From Candidatus Zixiibacteriota bacterium (GTDB lineage: Bacteria > Zixibacteria > MSB-5A5 > GN15 > FEB-12), in assembly GCA_024276275.1 (NCBI GenBank), contig JAJRXM010000067.1, forward strand, positions 1 to 47,179: DNA of 47,179 nucleotides, given 5' to 3'. The translations under genes and the position numbers were made by a program. Below the pieces are notes generated by a model that saw only the letters and a list, made by a program, of their open reading frames with translations, made no database searches and had not been told where the DNA came from. This document shows, piece by piece, positions 4,442 to 25,912 of the stretch. Within the stretch, counting starts at the first letter, position 1. Every line of letters begins with the position of its first letter.

Positions 4442-4468
4442 TTGCAAACATTTCAAAATATCTATACT
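4442..4468 (+). promoter_or_regulatory. Sigma-70-like promoter of the 6S-like RNA gene
   Basis: TTGCAA (4442-4447) and TATACT (4463-4468) are separated by 15 bp, slightly short of the optimum. The expected transcription start, 6-9 bp after the -10, falls at the base of the terminal stem of the RNA described next. The spacing and the absence of any + strand ORF downstream argue for a non-coding transcript. Confidence 0.5.
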
Positions 4469-4473
4469 TTACC

Positions 4474-4652
4474 TATGGAGAGAATGATGCAATTTGAAAT
4501 TCTCTAACACCTATTTAATGAAGGTCGCCTCTTTCTTGTTGCGTACTCGCCGTGACCCTTTTTGGGTAGCGAAACTAAATACGAGAAAGTGACTTTAAAA
4601 TCCTTTACCTTATTCGTAAGGGAGTTTTTCAAATAGCAGACCTCTCTCCAAT
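4474..4652 (+). ncRNA. ssrS: Probable 6S RNA (ssrS-like)
   Basis: This roughly 180-nt intergenic stretch folds into a long rod as read by eye. The terminal stem pairs TGGAGAGA (4476-4483) with TCTCTCCA (4643-4650). A second stem pairs ATTTGAAA..CTC (from 4492) with GAG..TTTCAAAT (ending near 4634). A large internal bubble follows, with a small UUCG-capped hairpin (CCTTA/TAAGG) on its 3' side. The apical arm pairs CTTTCTTGT with ACGAGAAAG and is capped by CCC-TTTTT-GGG. A closing stem, central bubble with 3'-side hairpin, and apical arm at about 180 nt is the 6S RNA architecture, which mimics an open promoter and binds sigma-70 RNA polymerase. Strand is chosen from the promoter upstream and the intrinsic terminator immediately downstream. 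No primary-sequence match could be tested. Another structured RNA or cis-element remains possible. Confidence 0.55.
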
Positions 4653-4682
4653 AAAAAAACCCGCTAAAAGCGGGTTTTTTTA
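4653..4682. terminator. Bidirectional intrinsic terminator between the 6S-like RNA and rho
   Basis: A perfect CCCGC/GCGGG hairpin (4660-4664 / 4670-4674, loop TAAAA) is flanked by seven A residues on the left and seven T residues on the right, so it can terminate both strands. It ends the + strand RNA gene and also sits 16 bp beyond the rho stop codon on the minus strand. Confidence 0.9.
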
Positions 4683-4697: not shown

Positions 4698-5951
4698 CTA
4701 GTCCTTCATTGATGCCAAGAATCGCTTATTATTTTTTGTCTTCCTGACTCGGTCTTGCAAGAATTCCATTGCTTCAATTGGATTCATTTCAGCTAAGAAT
4801 TTCCGTAAAATCCATATTTTACTGAGAGTTTCTTCTTCTAAGAGCAACTCCTCTTTACGAGTCGAAGAACGGTTGATATCGATAGCAGGATAAACACGTC
4901 TATCTGCCAACCTACGGTCTAAGACCAGCTCCATATTACCGGTTCCTTTAAACTCTTCAAAAATAACCTCATCCATTCTTGAACCGGTTTCAATCAAAGC
5001 AGTCGCAATAATTGTCAATGAACCACCCTCTTCAATATTACGGGCAGCACCAAAAAATCTTTTTGGTTTGTGTAATGCATTTGAATCAACACCACCGGAT
5101 AGAATTTTACCCGAATGCGGCACTACCGAGTTATGAGCCCTGGCTAAACGGGTTATAGAATCAAGAAGAATAACAACATCTTTTCCACGTTCTGTTAATC
5201 TTTTTGATTTTTCTAATACCATATTCGACACTTGTACATGTCTTTCGGCTGGTTCATCAAATGTAGATTAAACCACTTCCCCGTTTACCGAACGTTTCAT
5301 ATCGGTAACTTCTTCAGGACGTTCATCTATTAGCAGAACAATAAGTATAACTTCGGGATGGTTCGTTGTAATAGCTTGAGCTATCTTCTGTAGAATAATT
5401 GTTTTACCTGCTTTAGGAGGTGATGTAATCAAAGCTCTTTGACCTTTACCGATAGGACTCATCAAGTCAATTATACGAGTAGTCAATTCCTCAGAATTAG
5501 TTTCCAAAGTAAACATTTCATCCGGATATAGCGGGGTCAGATTGTCAAACAATGTTTTATGTTTAGATGCATTCGGATGGTCATAAGTAACTGCTTCAAT
5601 TTTCAGTAAAGCAAAATACCGCTCATTATCTTTTGGAGGTCGCACCTGACCGGAAATAATGTCACCGGTTTTTAAATCAAATCTTTTGATTTGTGACGGT
5701 GATACATAAATATCATCTTGTCCGGGAAGATAATTATATCCCGGTGAACGAAGAAAACCGTAGCCTTCTTCTAAAATTTCTAATACTCCTTAAGCAAGAA
5801 TAACAGATTCTCCTGCTGAAGATTGTTCCATGATTTTGTAAATCAATTCTGATTTTCGTAGTCCGGATACTCCGGGAATATCCATACCCTAGGCTATCTT
5901 CAACAAATCAGCAATTGTTTTTGATTTTAAATCAGCTAGTTCAGCTGCCAT
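4698..5951 (-). pseudogene. rho: Transcription termination factor Rho with three in-frame stop codons
   Basis: Read from the ATG at 5949-5951 (SD AAGGA upstream), the frame gives 417 codons, essentially the normal Rho length. It includes the RNA-binding domain ([27 protein letters not shown]), Walker A (PPKAGKT), [10 protein letters not shown], the Q-loop region and the C-terminal R-loop. Three stops interrupt it: TAG at 5889-5891 (codon 21, after LLKIA), TAA at 5790-5792 (codon 54, just before GVLEIL) and TAA at 5268-5270 (codon 228, in GEVV*STFDEP). No frameshift exists and the residues between stops are fully family-like. The longest pieces are 4698-5231 and 5268-5645. Each stop is one G-to-T or C-to-A change from a plausible sense codon (GAG, GAA, TCA). 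Without readthrough no functional Rho would be made. Either the decay is very recent, the sequence contains errors, or another mechanism acts. Confidence 0.9.
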
Positions 5952-5979
5952 TTTAGATCCTTCATATTCTTTTAATAAT

Positions 5980-6333
5980 TTATTCGTCTTTTAACTCTTC
6001 TATCGGGGCATCTCCCCATAATTTTTCCAATGCATAAAATGTTCGAACCGGTTCTCTGAATATATGTACCACAACATCAACATAATCAAGAAGAACCCAG
6101 TTTCCGGTATCTAATCCTTCTTTATGAAACGGCTTTAAACCGTCATCCAGTAATTCATCACATACTGCGTTGGAGATTGCTTTCACATGTACATCAGCAT
6201 CACCCGACACAATGACAAAATAATCACATATCGAAGAGATATTATCCATTTTCAGTATTTTTACATCAAATCCGCGTTTCGCTAGAGCAACCTGCCCTGC
6301 TTTTCGTGCTGTTTCTAAGGCTCTGTTTGCCAC
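5980..6333 (-). CDS. rsfS: Ribosomal silencing factor RsfS
   Basis: This 117-residue protein belongs to the RsfS/Iojap family, which binds ribosomal protein uL14 and blocks subunit joining when nutrients are scarce. Typical features are DISSICDYFVIVSG (here MDNISSICDYFVIVSG), the NWVLLDYVDVVVHIF motif and a C-terminal YALEKLWGDAP. It lies 7 bp downstream of the LytR_C gene and 28 bp upstream of rho on the same strand. The pairing of rsfS with an LCP/LytR_C-type gene is common in bacteria. Confidence 0.95.
   Translation of the reverse strand: MANRALETARKAGQVALAKRGFDVKILKMDNISSICDYFVIVSGDADVHVKAISNAVCDELLDDGLKPFHKEGLDTGNWVLLDYVDVVVHIFREPVRTFYALEKLWGDAPIEELKDE

Positions 6334-23493: not shown

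Positions 23494-25912
<2,419 letters not shown>

Follow-up and report, generated by a model that had tools for sequence, protein, structure and literature searches.

A single-copy 6S-like RNA of Candidatus Zixiibacteriota that is not recognised by the Rfam 6S model

The window, by which we mean the whole stretch of 47,179 nucleotides from Candidatus Zixiibacteriota that was analysed, contains an RNA gene between acpS and rho. Sequence reading and folding place at positions 4475-4682 of the + strand a promoter-driven, structured RNA of about 176 nt that is followed by an intrinsic terminator, and no reading frame of at least 60 amino acids is present in the acpS-rho interval. Both acpS and rho are encoded by the minus strand, the RNA and acpS being arranged divergently and the RNA and rho convergently. 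In the window copy, the RNA ends about 15 nt short of the end of rho. The first-pass annotation of this DNA had placed the gene correctly between these neighbours, and the + strand promoter, the second stem, the hairpin on the 3' side of the bubble (UUCG, 4608-4621), the apical arm and the strong intrinsic terminator that it had described were all recovered, with a likely start of transcription near 4475. Its length of 179 nt has to be corrected to about 176 nt for the RNA proper, while the perfect 8-bp pairing of the ends was retained. The individual parts are as follows:

4442-4468, + strand: promoter read in the sequence, with a -35 element TTGCAA (4442-4447), a 15-nt spacer and a -10 element TATACT (4463-4468)
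4475-4682, + strand: whole transcription unit, with an inferred start near 4475 and the terminator as its end; folding z-score -8.05
4476-4483, + strand: 5' strand of the closing stem P1, pairing with 4643-4650; fold and covariation
4492-4504, + strand: 5' strand of P2, AUUUGAAAUUCUC, the proposed end of the product-RNA template; alignments A2 and A3
4505-4518, + strand: 5' strand of the central bubble, with a nearly invariant UAACA; the product RNA is proposed to start opposite C4508, next to which lies A4509
4519-4524, + strand: 5' strand UGAAGG of the apical closing helix P4, pairing with 4602-4607; invariant in the phylum
4525-4601, + strand: apical arm (P5 and P6) and terminal loop; covariation in helices 3-7
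4602-4607, + strand: 3' strand CCUUUA of P4; alignments and covariation
4608-4621, + strand: 3' strand of the central bubble, forming a CCUUA-UUCG-UAAGG hairpin in the genus of the window and overlapping the near-invariant UANNNU at 4606-4611
4622-4634, + strand: 3' strand of P2, GAGUUUUUCAAAU; alignments
4643-4650, + strand: 3' strand of P1; fold and covariation
4653-4682, + strand: intrinsic terminator hairpin with a 14-bp stem and a U-run; fold

Promoters scoring at least 8/12 were found in 36 of 52 upstream regions of relatives, as compared to 73 of 521 background segments (14%), and a terminator was located 3' of the RNA copy in 35 of the 52 relatives. The RNA therefore represents an independent unit. 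Where the flanks of relatives were available, nearly all RNA copies were divergent from acpS and/or pyrE, and rho was located downstream only in the genus of the window. Since rho is not a fixed downstream neighbour, the RNA is not a rho leader. The rho gene of the window (4698-5980, minus strand) itself contains three in-frame stops, two at Glu codons and the third at a codon for Ser within GEVV*STFDEP, which are absent from the relatives L002, L003 and L040. Each of these stops fits a single-base change, and they are therefore likely to represent sequence errors of the assembly or a decayed rho. CTP synthase is normally longer than 360 amino acids, and the CTP synthase (pyrG)-like frame at 24085-25167 (minus strand) has 360 amino acids only; this may reflect a similar assembly problem or a frameshift.

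The RNA of the window folds far better than its shuffled versions. With the terminator, the folding energy is -73.8 kcal/mol (z -8.05, with none of 200 shuffles as low), and without the terminator it is -56.5 kcal/mol (z -5.71). The compensatory changes that the first-pass annotation had suggested looking for were present in relatives, with a strong signal. The phylum-wide alignment A3 (69 sequences), which was fitted to the structure and hence leans towards it, has 93.0% of its cells paired versus 78.4% after shuffling, with a covariation of 0.442 versus 0.185±0.007 in shuffles and at most 0.085 in slid controls. The corresponding values for alignment A2 (48 sequences) are 91.4% versus 83.0% of cells paired, and a covariation of 0.286 versus 0.141±0.007, slid controls reaching at most 0.105. 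A2 is a MAFFT alignment, and when it was scanned for mutual information without supervision, pairs of the apical arm likewise came out on top. In P2, two-sided changes were observed at 9 of 9 pairs (A3). RNAalifold, applied to the full-length alignment with its misaligned linkers, missed P1 and P2. P1 was assessed in a separate test, which revealed covariation both in the order (z -14.9) and across the class (z -11.1); its sequence varies freely, with compensated variants such as GGAGAGAG/CTCTCTCC, GAGTTAGA/TCTAACTC and GGGCGGGG/CCCCGCTC. P4 (UGAAGG/CCUUUA) is near-constant within the phylum, with a compensatory change from A-U to G-C in two outside lineages. Alignment of the copies from outside the phylum and of one partial Zixibacterial copy showed that the structure is kept, with compensatory changes of their own.

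Among the papers searched, none dealt with 6S RNA or with noncoding RNA in Zixibacteria. A covariance model of the RNA that was built from relatives (R2) gave exactly one match per matching genome, in 118 of 132 Candidatus Zixiibacteriota genomes and in 72 of the 78 high-quality genomes of the phylum. BLAST matches with E-values of at most 0.001 were obtained in 50 of 61 relatives, some of the weakest being matches to the terminator only. When the conserved core was used as a DNA search pattern, dozens of contigs from Candidatus Zixiibacteriota were retrieved; in the matches to other named bacteria that were examined, the rest of the element was absent. Searching 388 genomes with model R3 identified 90 Zixibacteria and seven other genomes belonging to six families (G133, G408, G136, G186, G262, G270 and G277; E-values from 1.8e-24 to 3.4e-8). 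In three outside genomes from two families (L215, L219 and L221), the RNA adjoins recA-like and 2'-5' RNA ligase-like genes, named by sequence only; this neighbourhood is common to the two families and unlike the acpS one. The weak match of one copy, L214 (G092:C1:3723280-3723540, in a genome made up of a single contig), is explained by a run of N into which the copy extends.

The first-pass annotation had named the Rfam 6S model RF00013 as a check on its proposal, and here the outcome was negative. No match was obtained for the window copy or for any of the other copies searched at E-values of up to 10 (49 in total, made up of the window copy, 20 copies each at the level of the order and of the class, and 8 that were outside or partial), the gathering threshold thus not being reached, and RF00013 had no match anywhere in 98 genomes of the phylum. 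A sequence HMM of canonical 6S RNA found none of these RNAs, and R3 gave weak in-register matches (E about 0.5) to only 2 of the 40 genes for canonical 6S RNA. When acpS or recA was sought beside canonical 6S genes as a link of orthology, neither was found. The 6S-Flavo family (RF01685), a clade-specific 6S variant separate from RF00013 as the present RNA would be, had no match in the genome of the window, in a search that lacked a positive control, or in a cmscan of the copies. Permissive Rfam scans of the window returned only terminator look-alikes, namely families of leaders and sRNAs whose match was to the terminator hairpin, and those of the relatives' copies yielded nothing useful. A degenerate SRP RNA was rejected, as SRP RNA is present elsewhere in the genome, and the only grounds for excluding tmRNA and RNase P RNA are length and the absence of a match in Rfam.

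In the same 388 genomes, RF00013 had 168 matches, all among the 291 genomes from outside the phylum (58%) and none among the 97 carriers of the present RNA. For the seven outside carriers, such a zero overlap has a chance of about 0.002 (about 0.005 for six families), calculated by hand from the counts, but this mutual exclusion is not independent of phylogeny and neighbouring lineages may be difficult for RF00013. With covariation being strong and no credible 6S RNA detected elsewhere in the carriers, the combination that had been named beforehand as speaking against a 6S RNA, i.e. no covariation, no 6S match and a strong 6S match elsewhere in the genome, was not encountered.

In 6S RNAs, the 5' strand of the central bubble stands open and the product RNA begins at its P2 edge. 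In the present RNA, this strand combines a near-constant length with an AACA edge, and in the order of the window it can pair with the 3' side. Counted between UAAC and AUGAAGG, it measures 9 nt in nearly all order-level copies, its sequence being variable; across the class it measures 10-12 nt, a count that takes in one more base. The edge between P2 and the bubble is most often GAGCC-AACA in canonical 6S RNAs (40 genes from genomes of other phyla) and CUCU-AACA here. A 16-column profile built only from canonical 6S RNAs ranked this edge first of about 195 positions in 56 of 131 copies and among the top three in 96 of them, where it should be noted that these copies are related and do not represent 131 separate tests. 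In the window copy, the best position of the canonical profile is 4506, with a modest score that 102 of 5000 shuffles reached at some position. Experimentally known 6S RNAs have a conserved adenine directly upstream of the site where the product RNA starts (PMC8414754), the counterpart of which would here be A4509 beside C4508. A profile of the canonical 3' bubble found no match.

Within the order, covariation links the distal part of the 5' bubble strand to the segment of the 3' strand adjoining P2 (mean -5.30 kcal/mol versus -4.22 kcal/mol when permuted, z -5.3, 0/5000). This is similar to the central bubble collapse helix of B. subtilis 6S-1 RNA (PMC8876501), with which the present RNA also shares a small hairpin in the 3' bubble strand; no overall sequence similarity between the two is known. 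In the rest of the class, no covariation was observed for a pairing of the collapse type (z 0.6), and the signal may therefore be lineage-specific. Instead of this pairing, the 3' strand of L072 and L078, and more loosely that of L074, includes a complementary repeat (UUUGAGG...CCUCAAA). A 3'-strand hairpin that forms when P2 opens has been described for E. coli-type 6S RNA and, similarly, this repeat could fold into a hairpin, but only once P2 has opened. The same three copies (L072:651-835, L078:4192-4376 and L074:2461-2639) have a rebuilt P2, in which the A-run/U-run is swapped to U-run/A-run.

6S RNA is the decoy promoter by which bacteria restrain their RNA polymerase. Structurally, such RNAs are rods of about 160-200 nt with a closing stem, a large central bubble and an apical stem, and the present RNA has this structure. 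Functionally, 6S RNAs are abundant, bind the holoenzyme of RNA polymerase that contains the primary sigma factor, and are copied by it into a product RNA. With the 6S/SsrS family (RF00013) it shares a length of roughly 180 nt, the closing stem, an asymmetric central bubble with a 3'-strand hairpin, a long apical arm, AACA at the P2/bubble edge, an adenine by the proposed product-RNA start and the presence of one copy per genome. However, its apical closing helix is UGAAGG/CCUUUA and not the canonical GGGAG/CCC, its P2 is A/U-rich, it lacks both the CCCACCUG...CAGGU pattern in the 3' bubble strand and the GG that is conserved close to where known product RNAs begin, and RF00013 fails to recognise its copies. 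The architecture had already been judged to fit 6S RNA in the first-pass annotation, and this view is supported by the single-copy, phylum-wide spread, the complementarity with Rfam 6S, the bubble geometry and the AACA motif. We therefore regard the RNA as most probably a divergent 6S-type RNA, with polymerase binding and a product RNA as predicted properties. As RF00013 is negative and binding to the polymerase is a prediction, the designation '6S-like' is supported, whereas '6S' is not proven.

A divergent 6S-type RNA would be expected to mimic an open promoter and to be bound by the holoenzyme of the housekeeping RNA polymerase, with the apical arm in the place of upstream DNA and P2 in that of downstream DNA. 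With P4 taken as the upstream fork and P2 as the downstream duplex, the distance between them would put +1 at C4508, and on the opposite strand UANNNU (4606-4611) would lie at the place of a -10 element. Upon the return of nucleotides, the enzyme would use the 5' strand as a template, starting opposite C4508, and the predicted product RNA would be of the form GUUAGAGAAUUUCAAAU, copied into P2. Opening of P2 would then allow the alternative pairings to form, thereby releasing the enzyme. This register is hypothetical, since it was chosen to fit and the canonical 3'-strand profile is unmatched.

Several other readings have to be weighed against a divergent 6S-type RNA. It is conceivable, though rather doubtful, that canonical 6S RNA is replaced, in Zixibacteria and in several lineages besides, by a second polymerase-regulating RNA family that was built independently or diverged very anciently. 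Such a family would have bubble sequences and an apical closing helix of its own, and its target might be another state of the polymerase. An unrelated new class of RNA with a role of its own, in which the rod shape and the bubble resemble 6S RNA by coincidence, appears improbable. It would agree with the lack of any detectable family match and with a loop conservation (UAACA, AUGAAGG, CGCCGUGACC and AGCGA) that is high for a 6S RNA, but the copy number, the length, the own promoter and terminator, its mutual exclusivity with Rfam 6S and the matching position of AACA all point to 6S.

A slightly smaller probability is assigned to an Ms1-like RNA, which would be shaped like 6S RNA but would bind the core RNA polymerase without the primary sigma factor, storing the polymerase or tuning its levels. 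Ms1 of Actinobacteria was first predicted to be a 6S RNA from its structure and then found on the core enzyme (PMC9130861). It has a 6S-like central bubble and replaces Rfam-type 6S RNA across a clade, which would fit the absence of Rfam 6S from the phylum. However, Ms1 measures about 300 nt and has extra hairpins at its ends (PMC9130861), whereas the present RNA measures about 176 nt with the promoter and terminator close to P1, and the AACA start-site edge and the bubble length are common to this RNA and canonical 6S. Lastly, the position between acpS and rho in the genus of the window, with an end about 15 nt before that of rho, could suggest a leader or antisense element acting on either neighbour. 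This we consider extremely improbable, because transcription proceeds away from acpS and approaches rho from its 3' end, rho is a neighbour in this genus only, the neighbours outside the phylum are different (e.g. recA), and most copies are ended by their own terminator.

If the RNA is indeed a divergent 6S RNA, the 6S gap would be filled for a whole phylum and for other lineages in which Rfam finds none, and curators would have an alignment and a model at hand for a new family. Moreover, it would show which parts of 6S RNA are indispensable (the bubble length and the AAC-A start edge) and which ones are replaceable, and it becomes directly testable whether a polymerase-decoy RNA is maintained in all bacterial lineages. 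More than 100 of the outside-phylum genomes among the 388 match neither RF00013 nor the present RNA, and these genomes may hold further undescribed 6S variants.
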